Assembly (NCBI GenBank): GCA_021819105.1
Contig: JAKASK010000002.1
Span: 1-64,000, forward strand
Length of the DNA: 64,000 bases
Source: an archaeon
GTDB lineage: Archaea > Thermoproteota > Nitrososphaeria > Nitrososphaerales > Gagatemarchaeaceae
Direction of reading: 5' to 3'
The position numbers and the translations under genes are program-made. Under the pieces are notes generated by a model that worked only from the letters and a program-made list of their open reading frames with translations, had not been told where the DNA came from and did no database searches. Shown here in pieces: positions 346 through 57,682 of the stretch (positions are counted from its first letter, which is position 1; each line of letters opens with the position of its first letter).

Positions 346-732
346 TTACCCCGTGTAGGCGAGCGCCGAGAAGTAGGCGGAGAAGGCGGAGACGAACGCC
401 AGCGCCATGAGATAGGAGTAGGCGTTGTTCCCGCCCGAGAACAAGAAGTACATGCCCCCCAGACCGGCGAGCAGCACCGAAACAAGACCCACGGCCGACA
501 GGTCGATCACAGACGACTTGCCGTGGATGAGAGAAAGCACGAACACCACGAGTGCGCCGGCGGCCATGAGCCATCCGAGCATGATGTGTAGCATGAGCAC
601 GGGCGCGCTGGCCGAATACATGACGGCGAACATGATTCCCATCATCCCGTAGCCGGGGGCCAGCTGCGGGATCGAAGCGTAGAGGTTGACCCACATGCCC
701 AGCGCAAACTGGAGGAAGAGCAGCGCAAGCAT
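346..732 (-). CDS. Four-helix membrane protein of unknown function
   Basis: The 128-residue protein has four strongly hydrophobic segments at about residues 1-15, 30-66, 78-98 and 104-126. His49 (LHIMLGW) lies inside a helix and His70 at a helix end, so a membrane haem or metal site is conceivable but unproven. I chose ATG at 732; GTG at 735 is equally possible, and the frame continues upstream without another standard start. It is the third gene after arsR and a methyltransferase on the minus strand and is probably co-transcribed, with a 71-nt gap. I do not recognise the family. Confidence 0.6.
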   Translation of the reverse strand: MLALLFLQFALGMWVNLYASIPQLAPGYGMMGIMFAVMYSASAPVLMLHIMLGWLMAAGALVVFVLSLIHGKSSVIDLSAVGLVSVLLAGLGGMYFLFSGGNNAYSYLMALAFVSAFSAYFSALAYTG

Positions 733-803
733 CACAGTCAGACCCGCTCGGAGAGGGAGGAACCCCGTGCCGCCTGCCGTGTCCGGCGAGGACAGTCCTC
801 CGC

Positions 804-1397
804 TCAGCCTCCCGGGACGGCTGAGCCGTCGAGGGCTACCTCCGCCCACCGCCCCGCCAGCCCGCTGCCTTCCTCGATCACCCTGAACCCCGCCAGTATC
901 CTGCGCCACTCCTCTCCGTCCACCCCCATCCTGCCTTTCCTGAGGAAGGTCCTCGTTACGCTCAGGTACGCCGACCCCACGGGCTTGAGTATCCTCCTTA
1001 TCTCGCCCAATGCGCCCGCATGGTCGGCCATGCAGCAGAGCAGGCCTCCCGCCAGGACGAAGTCCACCGAAGAGCTGGGTATGAACCCGATGCCTGCGGC
1101 CGATGAAACGTGCGCCTCTATGTTGGAGCGGCCGAGCCTCTCGGCCTTCCGGCTGAGCTTCCGGATAGCCTCGCCGTCGAAGTCCACGGCGTAGACCTTT
1201 CCGCTCGGCCCCACTCTCCTCGCCATCTCCAGGGTATTGAAGCCGGGCCCGCACCCCAGGTCGACGGCTACCTCTCCCCCCGAGAGGAACCTAGAAGCGA
1301 GCCTGGTCGGGGGCGCGAGAAGGCGGCGGACCGGGTTGTCTGTGACGAACGCAGGGATGCGCCTGTCGGCAGCGCAGCACTTCTCCTCTGTCGCCGT
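804..1397 (-). CDS. Class I SAM-dependent methyltransferase, no standard start codon
   Basis: Motif I is DLGCGPG, followed by VYAVDFD (motif II) and a methyltransferase-11-like tail with ILKPVG, so it is a Rossmann-fold methyltransferase that uses S-adenosylmethionine. The N-terminus carries KCC, a DNPVRR segment and LLAPP. Between the upstream arsR stop (1404-1406) and the SAM loop there is no ATG, GTG or TTG in frame; the first ATG (1226) lies after motif I. A perfect Shine-Dalgarno GGAGGTGA ends in the arsR stop codon and sits six bases before ACG at 1395-1397, which I take as the likely start. An ArsR-methyltransferase fusion split by TGA, or a lost start codon, are alternatives. The substrate is unknown; the Cys pairs would suit a metalloid, but this is inference. 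Confidence 0.65.
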   Translation of the reverse strand, partial: TATEEKCCAADRRIPAFVTDNPVRRLLAPPTRLASRFLSGGEVAVDLGCGPGFNTLEMARRVGPSGKVYAVDFDGEAIRKLSRKAERLGRSNIEAHVSSAAGIGFIPSSSVDFVLAGGLLCCMADHAGALGEIRRILKPVGSAYLSVTRTFLRKGRMGVDGEEWRRILAGFRVIEEGSGLAGRWAEVALDGSAVPGG

Positions 1398-1403
1398 CGT
1401 CCT

Positions 1404-1736
1404 TCACCTCCTCGCCGGACCGACGAGCTTCGTCAGCTCCTCGCCCTCCTTCAGCTGTTCGACGAGGACCTGCTTCATCAGTTCGCACGCCTGGATTATC
1501 TTTGGATTCGAAACGCGGTAGTAGATGTTGACCCCATCCTTCCTTGTCGTCACCACGCCTCTTTGCCTGAGGACGGCAAGGTGCTGAGACATGTTGGGCT
1601 GCCTGACGCGGAGAGCGGCGGAGAGGTCCCCCACCGACTTCTCCCCTCCCTTCAGAGCGTTCAGGATGTTTATCCTGATCGCGCTCCCGAGCGTCTTGCA
1701 GAGTTCCGCATGCAGCTCCGAAATGCGGTCGGGCAT
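1404..1736 (-). CDS. ArsR/SmtB-family winged-helix repressor
   Basis: The 110-aa protein has the ArsR layout: helix ELCKTLGS, then SVGDLSAAL, the recognition helix QPNMSQHLAVLRQ and the beta-wing TTRKDGVNIYYRV. Such regulators leave DNA on binding metals, metalloids or, in the SqrR/BigR branch, on thiol oxidation by persulfide. Two cysteines, C13 and C84, are available as sensors; the ELCVC box of arsenic/cadmium sensors is absent. The start is ATG at 1736, 33 nt after a TTTTTAAC box. A dyad at 1749-1764 lies between that box and the start, consistent with autorepression. A closely similar site precedes the sulfide-oxidoreductase operon at 2845. Confidence 0.85.
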   Translation of the reverse strand: MPDRISELHAELCKTLGSAIRINILNALKGGEKSVGDLSAALRVRQPNMSQHLAVLRQRGVVTTRKDGVNIYYRVSNPKIIQACELMKQVLVEQLKEGEELTKLVGPARR

Positions 1737-1748
1737 AGCCAAGTAGAC

Positions 1749-1775
1749 ATTCGCATATATGCATCCGGTTAAAAA
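1749..1775 (-). promoter_or_regulatory. arsR promoter and operator
   Basis: On the minus strand a TTTTTAAC box (about 1768-1775) is followed by ATGCATATATGCGAAT (1764 down to 1749), which contains the perfect palindrome GCATATATGC. The dyad lies ten bases upstream of the arsR ATG, the expected place for an autoregulatory operator. The same 16-mer with one change recurs at 2845-2860. Confidence 0.6.
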
Positions 1776-1800
1776 TCTTGCGAGGCTGCGGTGAGCAATT

Positions 1801-1822
1801 CTCATATCACCTCTGATATGAG
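1801..1822. promoter_or_regulatory. Perfect 9-bp inverted repeat over the divergent promoter
   Basis: CTCATATCA (1801-1809) and TGATATGAG (1814-1822) form an exact inverted repeat with a CCTC spacer. The right arm is AT-rich and lies about 28-36 nt before GTG at 1850, so it overlaps the likely TATA box of the plus-strand operon. The half-site TGATATG recurs at 2841-2847. It is a probable operator for the neighbouring ArsR protein. Confidence 0.55.
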
Positions 1823-1849
1823 GGATGTAGCCAGAGGCGATGTAAGGCA

Positions 1850-2147
1850 GTGCCGAGACACGGGTGGGGCGGCCAGTGCGGCTGTTGCTACTCCGGGCCT
1901 GGCTATTCTTGGACAAGGAGAAGGGATGAAGCGGTGGAAGAGCAGGAGGACTTTAAGGCGGGCCTCGAGTCCGCGATAACCGCCTTGGAGAAGAGGATCC
2001 AGTCCCTCAAAGAGAAGAAGGAGTGGGACTGGTGCGTGGAGGCCGTACAGGATCACTCCGAAGGGGAAGGAGGCGCTGAAGGACTACGACAAGTTCAGGG
2101 GCGAGTGGATGGAGGGCGTCTCGCAGCTCAGGGAGACGTGGTGGTGA
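1850..2147 (+). pseudogene. Frameshifted small Gly/Cys-rich coiled-coil protein (DUF5320-like)
   Basis: From GTG at 1850 the frame encodes a Gly/Cys-rich N-terminus (GWGGQCGCC) and then a charged helix with ALEKRIQSLKEKKEW, the layout of DUF5320-type archaeal proteins. Near 2048-2052 coding potential jumps to another frame, which reads ITPKGKEALKDYDKF and ends LRETWW at TGA 2147, resembling the end of a PadR-like winged helix. Removing one base near the GG at 2050-2051 would join them. This may be a real frameshift, programmed frameshifting or a sequence error. The stop lies just before the next ATG at 2149, so it looks like the first gene of an operon. Confidence 0.5.
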
Positions 2148-2148
2148 A

Positions 2149-2469
2149 ATGAGCAAGACAGTGGAGCTGCTGTATTTCGAGGGCTGCCCGACCTATAAGA
2201 CGACACTGAAAGATCTGGAGGAGATAGTGAAGCAGGAGGCCCTCGACGCCCGCATCGACCTCATCAGGGTCGAGTCTGAGGAGGATGCGAAGAAGCTCGC
2301 ATTCCTGGGTTCGCCGACCGTCAGGGTTGACGGGGCCGACGTCGACCAGACCGCAAGGGGCTCCAGCGACTTCGGCCTCGGGTGCAGGATCTACAGAGCC
2401 GAGGGAAGGATTCTCGGCACCCCGTCAAGGGAGGTGCTGAGGCGAGCCCTGAAGGGGGAACCGACATGA
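2149..2469 (+). CDS. Thioredoxin-fold small protein (FEGCPTY type)
   Basis: The 106-residue protein begins with a beta strand and the motif ELLYFEGCPTYKTT, followed by GSPTVRVDGADV, the cis-Pro region of a thioredoxin fold. Related proteins occur beside mercury, arsenic and thiol-stress genes. The active site keeps one Cys (C14) and has Tyr where the second Cys is expected, so it is more likely a thiol carrier or persulfide acceptor than a disulfide reductase. A further Cys lies in GLGCRIY. Its stop overlaps the next start (ATGA at 2466), showing tight operon linkage. Confidence 0.75.
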   Translation: MSKTVELLYFEGCPTYKTTLKDLEEIVKQEALDARIDLIRVESEEDAKKLAFLGSPTVRVDGADVDQTARGSSDFGLGCRIYRAEGRILGTPSREVLRRALKGEPT

Positions 2470-2717
2470 CGGCCCAGGTCGCGCTTGTCGTAGCGGAATG
2501 GTGCCCGGTCCGCCCGAGCGCCAAAGAACTTTGGAGGAATCTGAGGAAGGAGGTTGACTTCCATTACGACGAGATTGACATCGCCAGCCCACTCGGGGAG
2601 AAGCTGGTTGCGGAATCCAACATCCTGAGCGTGCCTACCGCGACAATAGATGGGAGCGTCGCGTTCGTCGGGGTGCCGGAACGCAATGAGGCGATCAGGA
2701 GGGTGACGAAGGGTTGA
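2466..2717 (+). CDS. Thioredoxin-like protein with single active-site Cys
   Basis: This 83-aa protein has the short glutaredoxin/thioredoxin layout: strand VALVVAEWC, helix PSAKELWRNL, strand DFHYDEIDI, cis-Pro segment VPTATIDG. The active site is WCPVRP, keeping the first Cys but not the second, so it cannot do ordinary dithiol chemistry. Its start overlaps the upstream stop (ATGA) and its stop overlaps the next start (TTGA at 2714), so all three are translationally coupled. A role in moving sulfane sulfur or metal-bound thiol is plausible from context. Confidence 0.75.
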   Translation: MTAQVALVVAEWCPVRPSAKELWRNLRKEVDFHYDEIDIASPLGEKLVAESNILSVPTATIDGSVAFVGVPERNEAIRRVTKG

Positions 2718-2839
2718 AGTGCGAAGAGTGTGGGGTGGAACTGACCGAGGAGAACACCTACAGGAGGGCGATGCACGGGGTGGAGCATCACTTCTGCTGC
2801 TCCCACTGCGCCGGCAGTTATCAGAAGGGCAAAGCCTGA
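2714..2839 (+). CDS. 41-aa cysteine/histidine metal-site peptide (TRASH/YHS-like)
   Basis: A TTG start overlapping the previous stop opens a 41-residue frame. It has CEEC near the N-terminus, then HGVEHHFCCSHCAGSY, giving two Cys pairs and adjacent His residues. This resembles TRASH/YHS metal-binding domains, which bind copper, zinc or mercury and often accompany ArsR-type regulators. The overlap, strong motif and operon position argue for a real gene despite its size. It ends 48 nt before the flavoprotein gene, which has its own promoter. Confidence 0.65.
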   Translation: MKCEECGVELTEENTYRRAMHGVEHHFCCSHCAGSYQKGKA

Positions 2840-2840
2840 C

Positions 2841-2860
2841 TGATATGCATATATACGAAT
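2841..2860 (+). promoter_or_regulatory. Promoter/operator of the sqr-dsrEFH operon
   Basis: The segment contains TGATATG followed by ATGCATATATACGAAT (2845-2860), which matches the arsR operator at 15 of 16 positions; a GTCT also follows both. The CATATATA part is centred about 36 nt before the ATG at 2888 and can act as TATA box, so bound repressor would block TBP. Confidence 0.6.
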
Positions 2861-2887
2861 AGTCTTTCGTCTTCCTCAGAAGACGAA

Positions 2888-4042
2888 ATGAGCGGGAATC
2901 AGATTCTCATCCTCGGCGGCGGTGTCGGCGGCCTTGTCGCATCGAACGTGCTTGCGGAAAGGTTGGGAGACAGGGCGAAGGTGACGCTCGTGGAGAGGAA
3001 GGACAAGTTCCAGTTCCCGCCGTCGTATCCCTGGCTCATGCTGGGCATGAGGGGGCCTGAACAGGTCCAGAGGGACCTGAGCGTGCTCAGGAGGAAGGGA
3101 ATCAGGGTGGCGAACGAAGAGATCGTCTCAATTGATGTTGGAAAGCGTTCGGTGGGGACGAAGAGCGGCGAATTCTCCTACGACTACCTGGTCGTATCCC
3201 TTGGAGCGGAGTACGCCCCACATACGATACCGGGGCTCCTGGAACACGCGCATCACATCTACGACCTGGAGTCTGCGACGCGCTTCAAGGATGCGGTGGA
3301 GAAGTTCAGGGGCGGGACGATCGCAATCGGCATCTCGCGCACTCCCTTCAAGTGCCCCGCCGCTCCTTACGAGGTCGCGCTCCTCCTTGAAGACTACTAC
3401 ACGAAGAAAGGGTTGCGAGACAAGTTGAAGTTCGAGTTCTTCACTCCCGAGCCTGGTCCGGTCCCGGCCGTCGGACCTGATATCGGGAACAAGGTGCTCG
3501 AGGTGCTCAGATCCAGAGGGATAAATTACCATCCCAAGCTGAGACTGAAGGAGATTAGGCAGAACGATTTGAGCTTCGAGGGTGGGGAAACGATGCGTTT
3601 TGACCTCCTCTTCTGCGTCCCTCCTCATGTAGCTCCTCCACCTGTGGTGAAGGCAGGGCTGACCAACGAAACCGGATGGATTCCGGTCAACCCAAGAACG
3701 ATGGAGACCAGCCATGAGGGGGTATACGCGGTGGGCGACGTGACTTCGATTCCCACTCCGTCAGGGTATGTGCCCTTCCTGCCAAAGGCGGGAGTCTTTG
3801 CTCACGGCCAGGCGGAGGTCGCGGCAAGGAACATAGCAACAAAGATCACGGGGAGGGGCAAGGCGACGACGTGGGACGGGAAGGGCTCCTGCTTCCTCGA
3901 AGTTGGTGGAGGCCAGAGCGCCTTCGTGAAGGGCAACTTCCTTTCAGAGCCCAGGCCAGAAATCGAATTTCACATGCCCGGGCGGGTCTGGCACGCCCAG
4001 AAGGTCATATTCGAGAAGTACTGGATGAGACACTGGTTCTGA
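2888..4042 (+). CDS. Sulfide:quinone oxidoreductase-like FAD flavoprotein
   Basis: The 384-aa protein opens with ILGGGVGGLVASNVL, an FAD-binding GxGxxG motif, and has the second dinucleotide-binding signature AVGDV near residue 282. Cys156 (PFKCPAAPYE) and Cys335 (GSCFLEVG) match the pair that carries the trisulfide in sulfide:quinone oxidoreductases; Cys243 is extra and the third Cys of some archaeal enzymes is missing. The C-terminal FEKYWMRHWF resembles the amphipathic membrane anchor of this family. It would oxidise sulfide to polysulfide and pass electrons to quinone. Three DsrE-type sulfur-carrier genes follow at once, supporting the sulfur role over an NADH dehydrogenase role. Confidence 0.8.
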   Translation: MSGNQILILGGGVGGLVASNVLAERLGDRAKVTLVERKDKFQFPPSYPWLMLGMRGPEQVQRDLSVLRRKGIRVANEEIVSIDVGKRSVGTKSGEFSYDYLVVSLGAEYAPHTIPGLLEHAHHIYDLESATRFKDAVEKFRGGTIAIGISRTPFKCPAAPYEVALLLEDYYTKKGLRDKLKFEFFTPEPGPVPAVGPDIGNKVLEVLRSRGINYHPKLRLKEIRQNDLSFEGGETMRFDLLFCVPPHVAPPPVVKAGLTNETGWIPVNPRTMETSHEGVYAVGDVTSIPTPSGYVPFLPKAGVFAHGQAEVAARNIATKITGRGKATTWDGKGSCFLEVGGGQSAFVKGNFLSEPRPEIEFHMPGRVWHAQKVIFEKYWMRHWF

Positions 4043-4057
4043 GGAGCGAACGTAGAG

Positions 4058-4426
4058 ATGAGTGAGAGCGCAAAGTCGAAGCACCTCGGCATGCTTCTCT
4101 TCACCACGCCATACAGCTCGGAGAGCACCTCGGCCGCGATCAAGCTGGCGGGGGCAGCTTTGAGGAAGGGGCACCGCGTAACAATCTTCGCTTACGGCGA
4201 CAGCGTTCACAACTTCACGAAGGGGCAGAAGGCTACGGGAATCACCAACGCCGAGTCCGATTTCCGGACTCTGATCGGCGAGGGTTTGAAGGTGCAGCTG
4301 TGTGGCACCTGTCTCGCCTTCAGGGGCATAGGCAACGAATCGATCATGGAAGGGACGGAGCCGAGCAGCATGCGCAACCTGTGCAAGCTTATTGACGATG
4401 CGGACAGGTTCGTCTCCTTCACATAG
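4058..4426 (+). CDS. DsrE/TusD-like sulfur-carrier protein
   Basis: The 122-residue protein has the DsrE fold pattern: strand LGMLLFTTPYSS, helix AAIKLAGAAL, strand RVTIFAYGDSV and a late GLKVQLCGTCLAFRGI. C82 and C85 sit where DsrE/TusD proteins carry the persulfide-forming cysteine. It begins 16 nt after the flavoprotein gene. With the next two genes it forms a DsrEFH/TusDCB-like set that could take sulfane sulfur from the oxidoreductase. Confidence 0.8.
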   Translation: MSESAKSKHLGMLLFTTPYSSESTSAAIKLAGAALRKGHRVTIFAYGDSVHNFTKGQKATGITNAESDFRTLIGEGLKVQLCGTCLAFRGIGNESIMEGTEPSSMRNLCKLIDDADRFVSFT

Positions 4427-4444
4427 GGGAGTGCATCAATAGAG

Positions 4445-4804
4445 TTGGCCAAATCCCTGGCGATCGCGATAACCAAGGCTCCCTTCGGCACGATACATGC
4501 AGCCGAGGCGATCAGGCTGGCAAACGGAGCGATTTCATACGGGCACGAAGTGACGGTCGTTCTCATAGGCGACGGGATCTACATGGCGAAGACGGGACAG
4601 AAAGCTGAAGAAGCTGGTTGGACCTCACTCTCCCCCCTGCTGGAAAAGTTGGTCTCGAGCGGTCGCGCCAAGGTACTCGTTGACAGCGGCTCTGCTGTTG
4701 AGAGAGGCGTCCGTGCCGAGGACCTAGTGGCGGGCGCGGCGGTGTCGGAGGGACGGAGCATCTCCTTGGCCATGGCAGACGCTGACAGGTGCGTCGTCTT
4801 CTGA
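4445..4804 (+). CDS. DsrF/TusC-like protein
   Basis: The protein (119 aa, TTG start) repeats the DsrE fold: LAIAITKAPFGTIHAAEAIRLA, then HEVTVVLIGDGIYMAKTGQ, and ends in DADRCVVF. As in TusC/DsrF, no cysteine is present at the central active position, so it is probably the structural partner of the complex. It lies 18 nt after the DsrE-like gene and its end abuts the DsrH-like gene. Confidence 0.75.
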   Translation: MAKSLAIAITKAPFGTIHAAEAIRLANGAISYGHEVTVVLIGDGIYMAKTGQKAEEAGWTSLSPLLEKLVSSGRAKVLVDSGSAVERGVRAEDLVAGAAVSEGRSISLAMADADRCVVF

Positions 4805-4815
4805 GGTGCCTTGGA

Positions 4816-5139
4816 TTGACTAATCCGTTGCTGGTGATCTTCTCGTCAGGGAGGAACTCTGACCATACAATCGCCGGCTTGGAGCTCTTGCACAATCTCT
4901 CGGGAAGGAAGCGCGTGATGGTACTACTGACGCAGGATGCGGTGCTGCTTGCGCTGAAATCTCGGTCAGGCGCGAGCGACGCTTTCGGCGGCGTGTCCGA
5001 GGCTTATGTGCTCGCCGACCACCTTGCGAAGCGGGGTTTCGGGCAGGACTCCCTCGTGGAGCCTTTCAAAGTTCTGAATTACGATCAGGCGGTCGACCTG
5101 ATGATGGCGGATGGAATCTCGATCGCCGGTTCCTTCTAG
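4816..5139 (+). CDS. DsrH/TusB-like protein
   Basis: The 107-aa product from TTG at 4816 reads VMVLLTQDAVLLALK, then AYVLADHLAKRGF and VLNYDQAVDLM, the order typical of TusB/DsrH (strand, 'YVL..DL..RG', 'DYD.FVDL'). GAGGTG at 4803-4808 is a good ribosome site for this start; an upstream GTG at 4789 would overlap the preceding gene. It completes an E-F-H order as in the dsrEFH operons of sulfur oxidisers. The Cys expected near the C-terminus in some DsrH proteins is absent. Confidence 0.65.
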   Translation: MTNPLLVIFSSGRNSDHTIAGLELLHNLSGRKRVMVLLTQDAVLLALKSRSGASDAFGGVSEAYVLADHLAKRGFGQDSLVEPFKVLNYDQAVDLMMADGISIAGSF

Positions 5140-5433
5140 GAAATCACGAAGCGCCTGCTATCGGCTATGGCTGCGAGGGCGGCGAGCCTGTCCAGGACGG
5201 GGTCCGCGGTTCTCAAGGCCGGCAAGGAGGACAGCGGCTTTGAGACCGGGTCTTCGGACCACTCCATATGACGACAGGAGGGGGCAGTACTAATATTCGG
5301 GAGTCCTTCAGCTAAATTGGCACGTTGAGTGCCGAATTTGGTCCTAGTTTGGTCCCTGGTACTGGTTTAGGCATTTTCCGCACCGTCATGAAGGCCTTGG
5401 ACCGGTTCCCTGCCGAGCCGATGCGTTGAGCGA
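5140..5433. other. Intergenic stretch after the sulfur operon
   Basis: No convincing gene or RNA is visible. From about 5330 the minus strand may hold a frame-shifted continuation of the methyltransferase remnant described next. Confidence 0.4.
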
Positions 5434-8751: not shown

Positions 8752-9318
8752 TTACTGATGGGAGCTGGCTCGCTTCGAAGAACCGTCGGGGACCCACCCT
8801 ATCTCCATGTGAACTTCGAGCTTATGGTTTTCTTTCGCGTAGAGGAACTTGAACTTCAGTGGGTCGGTCGGGGTAATCTTCACCGCCTTGTCTGCAGAGA
8901 ACAGGTCCGAAGTCACGATGACCCCTCTGTCGATCGCCGAGCCCAGTTCTGTCAGTATCCTCGACACCTCTCTCCTGTTCGTCTCGGCCTTGAACCTGCT
9001 TATCGACTCGTGCGCTTCCCGGTAGTTCTCCAGGAGTTCGGTCATCTTCGTCCAGTGGGCCATGGACTGCAACAACTGTGCCCTTCCTTCCTCGGTAAGC
9101 GCGTAGTGCTTGCGGTCTGGAACTTCCTCCATGAACTCGATGCGGCTCGTCACCAACTTCCCCCTTTCCAGCCTTTCCAGGGCCGGGTAAATCGTGCCTG
9201 TCTTCGGCTTCCAGAACCCCGAGAAACGTTTCTCCAGTTCCCTGATGATCTCGTAACCATACATCGGTTTCTCCGAAAGCAGGAGTAGGACCCAGAGCGA
9301 CACGGTCTCCAGCTTCAT
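8752..9318 (-). CDS. PadR-family transcriptional regulator
   Basis: The 188-aa protein starts with the PadR hallmark MKLETVSLWVLLLLSEKP, then MYGYEIIRELEKR and the winged-helix segment GTIYPALERLERGKLV. The C-terminal helices mediate dimerisation. I prefer ATG at 9318, where family members begin, over the ATG at 9360. It is divergent from a ChrB-like gene with a shared palindromic TATA box and a dense inverted-repeat array, so it probably represses both. Confidence 0.85.
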   Translation of the reverse strand: MKLETVSLWVLLLLSEKPMYGYEIIRELEKRFSGFWKPKTGTIYPALERLERGKLVTSRIEFMEEVPDRKHYALTEEGRAQLLQSMAHWTKMTELLENYREAHESISRFKAETNRREVSRILTELGSAIDRGVIVTSDLFSADKAVKITPTDPLKFKFLYAKENHKLEVHMEIGWVPDGSSKRASSHQ

Positions 9319-9363
9319 TCCGCGCGGTACCACCTGGGACACGGCCGTGGCACCCGCCAAGCT

Positions 9364-9402
9364 TTATATAAGTAGCCCATCTACTAGGTAGTAGAGCTAC
9401 TA
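9364..9402 (+). promoter_or_regulatory. Shared promoter and palindromic operator array, padR/chrB-like
   Basis: TTATATAA (9364-9371) is a palindromic TATA box. CTACTA-GG-TAGTAG (9381-9394) is an exact inverted repeat, and it overlaps a second one, TAGTAG-AG-CTACTA (9389-9402), that ends on the A of the ATG. A related AGTAG...CTACT pair spans 9371-9385. A PadR dimer bound here would cover the chrB-like transcription start. Confidence 0.6.
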
Positions 9403-9848
9403 TGAAGTGGGTAACGCGGTCAAACGCACATGTGGACAGGATAGCCTGCCCCTGGCTGATCAGGAAATTCGTCGACTCACAAGCGGAGTTCCTCTTCGTG
9501 CCGGCTTCGATGGTCAAGGAGGTCGCGAAATCGGAGGGTGCCATCCCCTTCGACGCCCCGGGCATCGAGCTGACGCACTACGAGGAGGACGGCCACGAGC
9601 GGGTCAGTTTCGACGCAATCATCAAGAAGTACGGCCTCAAGGACCCAGCGCTACTCAAGGTGGCTGAGATAGTGAGGGGAGCGGACGCGAAGATCGCCGA
9701 GGCTCCTCAAGAGTCGGCTGGTCTCAAGGCCGTCGCGGAGGGTTTCCAGGCGATAGCCAAGGACGACCATGACAACATTTCAAGGCAGTTCCCGACCTAT
9801 GATGCGCTCTACGCGTTCTGCAAGCTCGCGGTCCAGAAGAAGGCGTAG
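9402..9848 (+). CDS. ChrB-domain protein (chromate-resistance family)
   Basis: The 148-aa product begins KWVTRSNAHVDRIACPWLIR, followed by EFLFVPAS, which is the ChrB C-terminal-domain signature, and carries conserved acidic and His residues typical of the family. In bacteria ChrB regulates or assists chromate efflux by ChrA, but no chrA lies here, so the substrate in this organism is open. It is transcribed divergently from padR and is followed after 49 nt by a beta-propeller gene. Confidence 0.8.
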   Translation: MKWVTRSNAHVDRIACPWLIRKFVDSQAEFLFVPASMVKEVAKSEGAIPFDAPGIELTHYEEDGHERVSFDAIIKKYGLKDPALLKVAEIVRGADAKIAEAPQESAGLKAVAEGFQAIAKDDHDNISRQFPTYDALYAFCKLAVQKKA

Positions 9849-54122: not shown

Positions 54123-55943
54123 CTAGAGGCAGTCGGCCACAATCTCGGCCACGTCTCTGACCTCCATCCCAGCTCCCGTCACCTTGGTGCTGTCGTCGAG
54201 CATGGAGAGGCAGAACGGGCACTCCGTGGCTATGGTCTTCGCCCCGGTCTGTGACGCCTCTTCAGTCCTTATCCCGGCTATGGACCTCTGCTGTGGAACC
54301 TCATACCAGTAGTTGGAACCCCCTGCGCCGCAGCAGAAGGTCTTCTCCTTCCGCCTCCCCATCTCCCTGACGTCCTCCACGGACGCTTCGAGGGCGGCCC
54401 TCGGCTCGTCGAAGACGCTGTTGTACCTTGAGGCGTAGCAGGCGTCGTGGAGGGTCACCGAGACCTTCTGGACCTTCTCGGGGGGGACCGTGATCTTCCC
54501 CTCGCGGATCAGGTTGGAGATTAGCTGCGTGTGATAGACCACCTCGTACCTGCCCCCGAATGCGGGGTACTCGTTCTTGAGGGCGTTAAAGCAGTGCGGG
54601 CAGGTGGCGATTATCTTCCGGACCCCATGCGAGTTGAGCTTCTCGATGTTCTGGAAGGCGAGCTCCTGGTACCTTCCCTCCTCCCCAAGCCTGCGGGCCG
54701 GGTCACCTACGCACGCCTCCTCGCTGCCGAGGATGGCGAAGGAGACACCGGCAGCTTTGAGTATCTTGCTGAGGGCCCGCGCGATCCTCTGGGCCCTCTG
54801 GTCGAAGGACGAAACGCAGCCGACCCAGTAGACGTACTCCGCGTCGGGGTTTGCGGCGACGGTGTCCACCCCCAGGCCCTCTGCCCAGGCGGCCCTCGTA
54901 GAGTTCTTGAAGCCGTAGGGGTTCTGGTTCTCGGCCAAGTTCTGGAGCATCGCCGACTTCTTCTTGTCCAGCTTCCCCTGGGCGACGAGCCCCCGCCTCA
55001 GGTCGTAGATGACGTCCAGGTGCTCCACCCCCACAGGGCAGCTGGCAACGCAGGCGCCGCAAGAGGTGCAGGACCAGAGCTCGTCCTCCCCGACGGACCC
55101 GAAGGGGTCGGCGCTCCCGTCCTCGGCCGAAGCCGCGAGGAGGCTGACCTTCCTCACCAGCACCCTGGGCGAAAGCGGGCGCCCGGCGGCTGTCGCGGGG
55201 CAGGCGGCTTCGCAGGCCCCTATCTCGACGCACGAGTCGAAGGAAAGCCGTTCAGCCGGGTCGAACTCTGAGACCTTGCCGACCCCGACGCGGACGGACT
55301 CCGGGTCGGTCTTCCCAGCCATGACCTCGGCCAGGTTGAAGGGGACCTTCATGCCAGACAGGGGCTTGTCGTAGGTCCCGATCAGGTTCACGCTCGGCCT
55401 GGAGTAGTATGCGGCCACGAGCACGTTCCTGGCCACCCCGACCGCCGAGCCGGCCAGAACGAGGGACGGGGACCAGAGGACGGCGAGTTCGGTCGTGGTG
55501 AGCGCTATGGCCAGCATCAGTATCAGCTGAAGGTAGGACGACGAAGCGGTGAAGTCCGACGAAGCTTTCAGCCCCCTCTCCACCGCCTTGCTCCGCACGA
55601 AGCGCTCGATCCTCCAGGCGAACGAGGCGACGAGGCCGGCGATCAGAGGGACGGAGAGGACAAGAATCAGGGTGACGAGCAGGGGGACATACCCCAAGAC
55701 CGGGACCAGCAGGGAGTTTGCTATCGACAGGCCGACCCCCAGGGCGATCGACAGGTGCATCAGAAAGACAGCGTCGCCGCTCCGGAGCCGGGACGCTTCG
55801 TCCCTGGTCAGGCCGACGAGGCGACCTGGAGAAAGGCTCACCGACCCGCGTCTCGCGTGGGCGGTCAGGGCGTAGAAGACAAGGACCACGGATGCTACCG
55901 TGACCGCGTAGGCTGCAGCGAAGACGGGGTCCACTGCGGCCAT
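54123..55943 (-). CDS. Membrane Fe-S ETF:quinone oxidoreductase (HdrD-like)
   Basis: The 606-aa protein starts with five or six TM helices (to about residue 190), then two ferredoxin-type sites and two CCG domains (WVGCVSSFDQR...CVGD...CPHCFN; HDACYASRYN...CCGAGGS...CPFCL). This is the layout of EMO-type enzymes that move electrons from ETF to menaquinone. The second ferredoxin site is complete (CTSCGACVASCP); in the first, CVEIGACEAACP, the second ligand Cys is Ile241. The gene follows etfA, etfB and an acyl-CoA dehydrogenase, supporting the role. Confidence 0.87.
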   Translation of the reverse strand: MAAVDPVFAAAYAVTVASVVLVFYALTAHARRGSVSLSPGRLVGLTRDEASRLRSGDAVFLMHLSIALGVGLSIANSLLVPVLGYVPLLVTLILVLSVPLIAGLVASFAWRIERFVRSKAVERGLKASSDFTASSSYLQLILMLAIALTTTELAVLWSPSLVLAGSAVGVARNVLVAAYYSRPSVNLIGTYDKPLSGMKVPFNLAEVMAGKTDPESVRVGVGKVSEFDPAERLSFDSCVEIGACEAACPATAAGRPLSPRVLVRKVSLLAASAEDGSADPFGSVGEDELWSCTSCGACVASCPVGVEHLDVIYDLRRGLVAQGKLDKKKSAMLQNLAENQNPYGFKNSTRAAWAEGLGVDTVAANPDAEYVYWVGCVSSFDQRAQRIARALSKILKAAGVSFAILGSEEACVGDPARRLGEEGRYQELAFQNIEKLNSHGVRKIIATCPHCFNALKNEYPAFGGRYEVVYHTQLISNLIREGKITVPPEKVQKVSVTLHDACYASRYNSVFDEPRAALEASVEDVREMGRRKEKTFCCGAGGSNYWYEVPQQRSIAGIRTEEASQTGAKTIATECPFCLSMLDDSTKVTGAGMEVRDVAEIVADCL

Positions 55944-55991
55944 GGTTCGTCGGCGGTCCTTGGGAGTTTAAAGCATGTTCGCCGAATACGC

Positions 55992-56921
55992 CTAGCGCGC
56001 CCTACTGGCGAGGGCCTTCCGCAGCGCAGGCACCAGCTGGTAGAGGTCTCCCACGATTCCGTAGTCAGACGCCTGGAAGATCGGCGCGTCCTTGTCGGTG
56101 TTTATCGAAGCGACCACCTTCGAGTCCTTCATCCCTGCGACGTGCTGCAGCTGACCTGAGATCCCTACGGCAAGGTAGAGGTCTGGTTTCACCGTCACAC
56201 CTGTCAGTCCTATGTGGTGCTCCTCAGGGAGCCACCCGAGGTCGGCAGAGAGCGGCCTCGAGCAGCCGAGGGCGCCGTGCATCTCACTTGCAAGCTCTTC
56301 CAGCATCGGGAGGTCCTCCTTCTTCTTCACTCCCCTCCCAGCTGAGACTATCACCTTGGCCGACTTCAGGTCCACCGCGCCGGCTGCCTTCTTCTCCCTG
56401 CCCACAACCCTCACGGGGTCTGAGACCTCCCCCACCTCCTTCTCCTGCACCACACCCTCCCCCGCGGCCATCTTGGGATAGGAGCCGACTTTCACTGTCG
56501 CCGCAGCCGGAAACTGGCACGACACCCTGGCGACGACCTTCCCCGCGAACACGTTGCGATCGCCTGAAAACGACGCCCCGTCGGCGCTGAGATTCGCCAC
56601 CTCAGCCATGCACCCGACGCGCATCTTTGCCGCGAAACGGGCGGCTATCTCCCTCCCTGTCCGGGTCGCTCCGGTGAGCAGGACCAACGGCTGCAGCTCC
56701 CTGGCCGCCCTGGCAAGCGCCTCGGCTGCGAGCGCGGGGGTGATATCCGGATGGGGCCCCTTTAGAAGTAGCTTGCCTCCGGGCGAGAAGGCGCCGGGAC
56801 GACTGGCCCCTATGTCGACGACCTGGACCATGGCGCCGGCCCCCTCGGCCACCCCGACGGCAGCAGAAGCTACCTCGTTGGACACCGACTCTGACTCCGA
56901 GTAGACCCAGACCGACTTCAC
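55992..56921 (-). CDS. etfA: Electron transfer flavoprotein alpha subunit
   Basis: The 309-aa protein has the FAD-binding C-terminal domain: SAKVIVSAGRGVKKKEDLP, then LTGVTVKPDLYLAVGISGQLQH and INTDKDAPIFQASDYGIVGD. With EtfB it accepts electrons from the acyl-CoA dehydrogenase encoded upstream. Its start overlaps the etfB stop by 4 nt. Confidence 0.93.
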   Translation of the reverse strand: MKSVWVYSESESVSNEVASAAVGVAEGAGAMVQVVDIGASRPGAFSPGGKLLLKGPHPDITPALAAEALARAARELQPLVLLTGATRTGREIAARFAAKMRVGCMAEVANLSADGASFSGDRNVFAGKVVARVSCQFPAAATVKVGSYPKMAAGEGVVQEKEVGEVSDPVRVVGREKKAAGAVDLKSAKVIVSAGRGVKKKEDLPMLEELASEMHGALGCSRPLSADLGWLPEEHHIGLTGVTVKPDLYLAVGISGQLQHVAGMKDSKVVASINTDKDAPIFQASDYGIVGDLYQLVPALRKALASRAR

Positions 56922-57682
56922 TTGAGGACCCCCTCCTTGACGAGCGCCTCGACCAGCTTGGCCGCGGCCTCATCGGGCGTCCCCCCTATCATCACGTGCT
57001 TCCTGACTGACGGCTGGGACGACATCGATTTCACTCCGACCTGGCTGTAGTCCCCAAGCGGGGCGACCTGGTCCCCGACAAGCTCTTCGATGGGCTTCTT
57101 CCCCGCCTGCATGATCTGGATGAGCGTGGGATACCTCGGCTCGTTGATCTCGCTGACGACTGAGACGGCGAACGGCACCGGGGCCTCGACCGACTCCACG
57201 CTGTCCTCGAGGGAGCGCTCGAGCTTGGCTGCGCCTCCCTCGACTCCGATCTTCTTCGCATAGCCCACATAGGGGAGACCGAGGAACTCCGCCAACATCG
57301 GCGGGACCTGCCCGGTGTAGGTGTCCGAGGACCCCTCGGAGCAGATCACTACGTCGTAGGGGCCGGACATCCTGATGGCGGCGGCCAGCATGCTCGCCAC
57401 GCGGAAGGAGTCGAGGGACAACGGGTCCGAAGTCACCAGCACCCCCCTGTCGGCGCCCATGGCCAGGGCTTCCTTCAGGGACTTCTTCGAGTCAGCCGTC
57501 CCCACCACGAAGACCACGACCTCTCCCTGATGCTTCGCCTTCAGCCTGAGCCCCTCTTCCACCGCGTTCTTGTCGAAGCTGCTCATCTTGCCCGGCGCCC
57601 CCGCGAGGACGGGGCTCCCGTTCGCGTCGAGCTTGAGCTCTGTTTCGTCCACGGCGTGCTTGACGCAGACCGCTATCTTCAC
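56918..57682 (-). CDS. etfB: Electron transfer flavoprotein beta subunit
   Basis: The 254-aa product has KIAVCVKHAVDETELKLD at the N-terminus, the AMP/nucleotide loop ALAMGADRGVLVTSD and QVPPMLAEFLGLPYVG. It overlaps the dehydrogenase stop by 4 nt and etfA by 4 nt. No extra motif for bifurcation (FixA-type) is obvious. Confidence 0.93.
   Translation of the reverse strand: MKIAVCVKHAVDETELKLDANGSPVLAGAPGKMSSFDKNAVEEGLRLKAKHQGEVVVFVVGTADSKKSLKEALAMGADRGVLVTSDPLSLDSFRVASMLAAAIRMSGPYDVVICSEGSSDTYTGQVPPMLAEFLGLPYVGYAKKIGVEGGAAKLERSLEDSVESVEAPVPFAVSVVSEINEPRYPTLIQIMQAGKKPIEELVGDQVAPLGDYSQVGVKSMSSQPSVRKHVMIGGTPDEAAAKLVEALVKEGVLK

Follow-up and report, generated by a model that had tools for sequence, protein, structure and literature searches.

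Between positions 1850 and 5139 of the 64,000-nucleotide (nt) stretch analysed here (the window, which opens contig JAKASK010000002.1 of a Gagatemarchaeaceae archaeon), genes for small cysteine-containing proteins precede, on the same strand, genes for a sulfide:quinone oxidoreductase (SQR)-like flavoprotein and for DsrE-, DsrF- and DsrH-like proteins. A sequence-only reading had coupled all of them into a single sulfane-sulfur relay. We read the interval, with moderate confidence, as a composite in which two modules are each under their own control: unit A, the small genes, and unit B, sqr with the dsr genes. The two are probably neighbours rather than one new relay, because they have separate switches and separate histories. 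Unit B is probably an ordinary sulfide-oxidising flavoenzyme with its sulfur-carrier proteins, and unit A probably a small group of thiol and metal-binding genes, some of them broken. The evidence, observed directly in the genomes, consists of gene content, conservation, operators, mosaic history, deletions and natural cysteine/selenocysteine exchange. The window comes from a draft genome of 0.9 Mb (65% complete), which was compared with 30 other species of its genus. From 350 to 5140 it holds three gene runs, one on the minus strand (the arsR side) and two on the plus strand (units A and B); the divergent arsR–methyltransferase–membrane protein run and both operators had been overlooked in the sequence-only reading.

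The two switches are short operators. Operator B (ATGCRTATATRYGAAT) lies upstream of arsR and again upstream of sqr, between the gene for a 41-amino-acid (aa) TRASH-like peptide and sqr. The arsR copy (ATGCATATATGCGAAT, 16 nt) occupies 1749–1764 on the minus strand, and the sqr copy (ATGCATATATACGAAT) occupies 2845–2860 on the plus strand, overlapping the likely TATA region. Among the 31 genomes of the genus, window genome included, there are 13 exact sites, all of them at arsR or sqr. Outside the genus, operator B recurs with up to three mismatches in the arsR–sqr intergenic region, twice in each of the loci L005 and L006 and once in L007. The divergent arsR and sqr share this operator. Operator A (CTCATATCA-CCTC-TGATATGAG, 1801–1822) is a perfect palindrome of the form ATATCA-N4-TGATAT that precedes the DUF5320-like gene. 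It is found at nine places in the genus, each upstream of DUF5320-like/padR genes, and it is present in G004 and G022, two genomes in which no such sqr was found. Reversed-pattern controls for both operators gave no site in the genus. Because of these co-occurrences, ArsR is the likely ligand of operator B and PadR that of operator A.

The linkage of the two units is real but limited. The thioredoxin and TRASH genes, together with the DF gene where the contig reaches that far, stand upstream of sqr in four other genomes of the genus (G016, G024, G029 and G030), so the small genes are conserved beside sqr elsewhere; none was seen beside sqr outside the genus. Near-identity in this region means that G016, G028 and G029 do not count as independent, and G013 and G030 probably do not either. 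Unit A occurs without this sqr in G004 and G022 and is partly unlinked in G027, and sqr–dsrE also occurs without the small genes, which speaks against a single coupled system. Among the 18 SQR-bearing genomes examined outside the genus, none has DF. Of 121 relatives, those with the thioredoxin all have this cluster, if one weak match of 33% identity is set aside. By sqr, the closest relatives are records labelled archaeon or Thaumarchaeota.

The sqr gene itself (2888–4042, plus strand) is a mosaic with a recombination breakpoint near 3370, since identity between relatives (L003 and L037 among the loci compared) switches abruptly about 450 nt into the gene. G016 and G024 share 86–100% identity (mostly 93–100%) over the region that begins with DF and ends about 450 nt into sqr, and 67–75% thereafter, whereas G024 and the window share about 72% in sqr just before that point and 80–97% after it. 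Because the identity between relatives switches inside sqr, the upstream part must have been exchanged by recombination separately from the 3' part of sqr and the dsr genes. In G016, a single short DsrE replaces DsrEFH. On the most economical account, unit A arrived between the divergent promoters of arsR and sqr, possibly by insertion.

Unit A runs in the order DUF5320-like gene, padR, DF, thioredoxin, 41-aa TRASH peptide and, in some relatives, a second TRASH gene. In the window, the reading frames of DF and thioredoxin overlap, as do those of thioredoxin and the TRASH peptide. The open reading frames named in the sequence-only reading are all present, but the first of them (1850–2152), taken as one gene, is chimeric: it joins the DUF5320-like gene to the remains of a deleted padR, read out of frame. 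Its residues 1–58 (1850–2023, plus strand) are 79–80% identical to a separate gene of 59–64 aa in relatives, with a ratio of nonsynonymous to synonymous substitution rates (dN/dS) of 0.17–0.21; the match to Pfam DUF5320 (15.5 bits) is below the cut-off. The remnant of the padR 3' end follows at 2042–2147 on the plus strand, in the frame RPYRITPKGKEALKDYDKFRGEWMEGVSQLRETWW. Relatives carry operator, DUF5320-like gene, an intact padR of 119 aa and DF in this place. Compared with them, the window has a net loss of about 245 nt, which removed most of padR; the surviving 3' end lies in another frame than the open reading frame before it. The second TRASH gene, a 127-aa Lsm_C-TRASH gene, lies 3' of the 41-aa peptide in L037 and L038, is mostly deleted in L003 and is missing in the window. 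With padR and this gene deleted and the second cysteine of the thioredoxin lost, unit A appears to be decaying in the window lineage, although an assembly error at the junction could be the cause. The surviving intact genes are under purifying selection (dN/dS 0.08–0.27). In G022, which has no close sqr, a copy of unit A (L180) lacks thioredoxin and DF, and its TRASH genes are frame-broken; unit A therefore decays elsewhere too.

The cysteines of the small proteins do not support the one-cysteine persulfide chemistry first proposed for two supposed one-cysteine thioredoxins. Each of the six orthologues read for the thioredoxin-like protein (2466–2717, plus strand; Thioredoxin_3, 22.9 bits, just below the cut-off of 24.8), of which one is partial, has the active site WCPVC; WCPVR stands in the window only, where the protein thus fails the two-cysteine CxxC test. 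The other of the two is a DF family protein (2149–2469, plus strand) with two cysteines, C13 and C79, which scores 116.7 bits against the curated NF049942 cut-off of 70. Both C13 (in EGCP) and C79 (in GxCRxY) are kept in distant archaeal homologues. In a survey of 198 genomes of the phylum of L016 (Deltaproteobacteria/Desulfobacterota-type), many DF genes carry an in-frame TGA, read as selenocysteine, at the Cys79 position (L130–L136, L138–L143 and L145), and two of them, L135 and L136, carry it at the Cys13 position as well. The latter probably encode a double selenoprotein form. That cysteine and selenocysteine naturally replace each other at both positions strongly indicates a DF that acts through two thiols or selenols. 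An AlphaFold2 model of DF built from three sequences was too poor for a C13–C79 distance or a fold search (mean pLDDT, the model's own confidence score, 54) and was left unused. The 41-aa peptide (2714–2839, plus strand) is a real gene, as the sequence-only reading had it, because it is conserved in relatives with a dN/dS of 0.11–0.17. The conserved residues are C3, C6, H25, C28, C29 and C32. The pattern of cysteines within the proposed CxxC/HHxCC signature holds, but the second histidine is replaced by tyrosine in some relatives. Its match to the TRASH/YHS family PF24273 reaches 24.2 bits, under the cut-off of 27, while relatives keep the cysteine and histidine pattern.

Because DF relatives often lie in mer and ars neighbourhoods, metal(loid) or thiol handling is the most likely role of unit A, as a best guess. 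In Desulfobacterota-type genomes, DF relatives stand beside MerT and MerA, are fused to arsenate reductase, or lie near ACR3 and an ArsE-type thioredoxin or near arsenite methyltransferase; some are found among housekeeping genes. The fusion at L158:3394-4107, with a thioredoxin-type arsenate reductase, lies just 3' of an ArsR gene. In G004, the DUF5320-like/PadR/DF unit is about 1.1 kilobases from ArsR–ACR3–ArsC-like genes on the same strand, these three having been assigned by eye. Unit A would then be a thiol/metal(loid) module under PadR control that most likely answers stress of the arsenic or mercury type.

For unit B, Pfam recognises what had been described as an SQR-like enzyme with an E-F-H trio, namely one SQR-like, two DsrE-domain proteins and one DsrH-domain protein. 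The flavoprotein passes the fold test (PF07992, 85.8 bits, cut-off 26.1). It has exactly two cysteines invariant in 15 homologues, C156 and C335, which align with the redox cysteines of the A. ferrooxidans SQR in a full-length alignment that includes the C-terminal region. Its best NCBIfam match is the type III selenoprotein subtype NF049943; with 221.1 bits against a cut-off of 525, the window SQR is a relative of this subtype and not a member. DsrE (4058–4426, plus strand; PF02635, 71.4 bits, cut-off 22.7) carries a CGTC motif (C82 and C85) that is present in every DsrE aligned from beside such an sqr, in archaea and bacteria. Its cysteine sits where TusD/DsrE has the carrier cysteine. The DsrF-like protein (4445–4804, plus strand; PF02635, 74.1 bits) has no carrier cysteine at the DsrE position, and the DsrH-like protein (4816–5139, plus strand; PF04077, 29.5 bits, cut-off 24.4) has no cysteine after its proposed TTG start, which was chosen from sequence. 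The expected carrier cysteine is thus found only in DsrE. All three proteins miss the equivalog cut-offs of TusB, TusC and TusD (31.0/49.2, 38.8/94.15 and 33.9/89.25 bits, respectively).

The anatomy of unit B supports well a predicted uptake of sulfane sulfur by SQR and DsrE under ArsR control. The SQR would oxidise sulfide at C156/C335 and pass electrons via flavin adenine dinucleotide (FAD) to quinone, and DsrE would take up the sulfane sulfur at CGTC within a TusBCD/DsrEFH-like complex. By binding operator B at both promoters, the divergent ArsR would repress unit B as well as its own gene, and this control would probably rely on the thiol chemistry of C13 and C84. The sulfide and sulfane-sulfur function proposed from gene order is hence likely for SQR and the CGTC carrier but not for the small proteins, for which the DF relatives point to mercury and arsenic operons.

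The final sulfur acceptor may be TusA or a lipoyl protein, a possibility suggested by a 216-aa GcvH–TusA fusion in L003 and by TusA-bearing frames of similar length, which are common in the genus. The fusion (L003:2966-3616) lies directly 3' of dsrEFH and is followed by a DUF3335/C39 peptidase-like gene; such a fusion beside dsrEFH was found in L003 only, with no trace in the window. In the window genome, which is 65% complete, TusA was considered as an acceptor and none was found. A second SQR paralogue, about 35% identical and with a TusA gene directly adjacent, lies at G016:C1:339583-340938, and similar places exist in G001, G003, G008, G009, G011, G020, G023, G027, G028 and G029. At 54126–57682 on the minus strand, the window encodes EtfA, EtfB and a membrane protein with two CCG domains and ferredoxin domains, probably an electron-transfer flavoprotein (ETF):quinone link; frames homologous to this protein and of similar length occur in most genomes of the genus. 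It was considered as a sign of sHdr, but, adjoining EtfA/EtfB, it was judged ETF-linked.

The arsR side runs divergently. The ArsR/SmtB-family regulator (1404–1736, minus strand) passes the metalloregulator subfamily test (NF033788, 81.9 bits, cut-off 55) but not the equivalog test for BigR, a persulfide-sensing ArsR (67.8 against 155 bits). C13 is invariant across eight homologues, and C84 is kept in the archaeal homologues and in L016; we take neither to stand at a BigR cysteine position. The next gene encodes a predicted methyltransferase dependent on S-adenosylmethionine (804–1403, minus strand, start uncertain), 84% identical to the L037 protein and constrained (dN/dS 0.18). A frameshift was ruled out, as one frame is open from end to end; only the start codon is odd, the window having AGG where ATG is usual. 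Its top NCBIfam match is arsenite methyltransferase, at 59.6 bits far below the cut-off of 263. A small membrane protein follows (349–849, minus strand, start uncertain), 73% identical to an L037 homologue in the same position, with further relatives in L007, L009, L012 and L015. Farther along the window, a PadR-like regulator (8755–9360, minus strand) is divergent from a chromate-resistance-type protein with a ChrB C-terminal domain (9402–9845, plus strand; PF09828, 152.8 bits). No RNA families or transfer RNAs were found in the window.

Same-strand order and tight spacing in several species, and the presence of this cluster in every genus genome with the thioredoxin where the contig permits, would fit one continuous relay, in which persulfide travels between SQR and either DsrEFH or another acceptor by way of the small thioredoxin-fold proteins and the 41-aa peptide. 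It is nevertheless improbable, for the families have no one-cysteine site, the units have separate operators and occur separately, and all 18 other SQR genomes lack DF. The whole locus might alternatively be one metal(loid)-resistance island, in which ArsR and PadR sense mercury or arsenic, the metal is handled by the methyltransferase together with DF, thioredoxin and the TRASH proteins, and SQR–DsrE tunes sulfide and sulfane sulfur within the same metal response. The mer and ars neighbours of DF, the subfamily score of ArsR, the weak best match of the methyltransferase and the position of unit A in G004, about 1 kilobase from ArsR–ACR3–ArsC, are in its favour. We still think it unlikely, because other archaea conserve arsR–sqr–dsrE but have none of these metal genes with it, this stretch showed neither a pump nor a reductase for arsenic or mercury, and the methyltransferase scores far below its cut-off. 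That the flavoprotein is some other quinone or NADH oxidoreductase of the SQR superfamily, and unit B not about sulfide, is very improbable: the top PDB match (3h8i) is annotated as an NADH oxidase, and there are weak matches to NDH-2 and coenzyme A-disulfide reductase, but the full-length alignment with the A. ferrooxidans enzyme, the invariance of both cysteines and the conserved DsrE neighbour argue for an SQR.

Several points weigh against the composite of two modules. Where unit A and sqr are joined, four lineages of the genus that can be told apart have retained the arrangement, which could mark a useful link. Those genes of unit A that survive, among them the one for the CPVR thioredoxin, look constrained and may be functional, and in so incomplete a draft misassembly could account for either the padR-region deletion or the CPVR codon. 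DF also occurs among housekeeping genes, so that its metal role is not certain. Moreover, all protein functions in both units are predicted from sequence, as are catalysis, sulfur transfer, the regulator–operator pairing and its ligands, the insertion mechanism and the role of unit A. It is also conceivable, though doubtful, that the placement of unit A between arsR and sqr created a functional link, in which sulfane sulfur from SQR–DsrE would reach the two-thiol DF and serve to thiolate or reduce arsenic or mercury species. If true, this would be an archaeal route of metal(loid) detoxification that depends on sulfane sulfur.

No description of this gene set was found in the papers searched. 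The composite is a new arrangement of known kinds of genes, and its main value lies in the clean operators and the facts about DF, a two-thiol/selenol protein that is a member of mercury and arsenic operons in several genomes. The locus is a case in which a plausible pathway drawn from gene order dissolves under comparison: a few kilobases hold two operators and two regulators, and their parts have different histories. Operator B is a directly testable operator for an archaeal ArsR–SQR–DsrE unit.

Among known systems, the SQR of unit B resembles the type III SQRs of the NF049943 neighbourhood, such as that of cable bacteria, in its FAD/Rossmann fold and in the pair C156/C335, which matches the cysteines called canonical for this type (PMC13047784), but it is archaeal, has no selenocysteine and is paired with DsrE and ArsR. 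Like the persulfide-sensing regulators BigR, SqrR and sHdrR/SoxR (PMC12423496, PMC10451225), the window ArsR is a candidate repressor of its family at a sulfur-oxidation gene and has two conserved cysteines; it differs in its low BigR score. TusBCD/DsrEFH, including the divergent DsrEFH-like set of the YTD cluster (PMC13047784), likewise comprise two DsrE-domain proteins and one DsrH-domain protein in tandem, from which the window set departs by its sub-threshold Tus scores, its CGTC motif and a DsrH devoid of cysteine after the proposed start. The sHdr and DsrE–TusA clusters (Metallosphaera, PMC4175335; LbpA, PMC6067878) share archaeal DsrE-type carriers and recall the GcvH–TusA fusion after dsrEFH in L003, but the window locus has no sHdr, tusA or lbpA gene. 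Finally, DF matches its family (NF049942; PMC12013277, PMC13188914) over the full length, above the cut-off and with both conserved Cys/Sec positions; the published record lists a selenocysteine DF for one organism (PMC12013277), whereas the DF of the window has cysteine at both positions and lies within a PadR-controlled module with thioredoxin and TRASH proteins.

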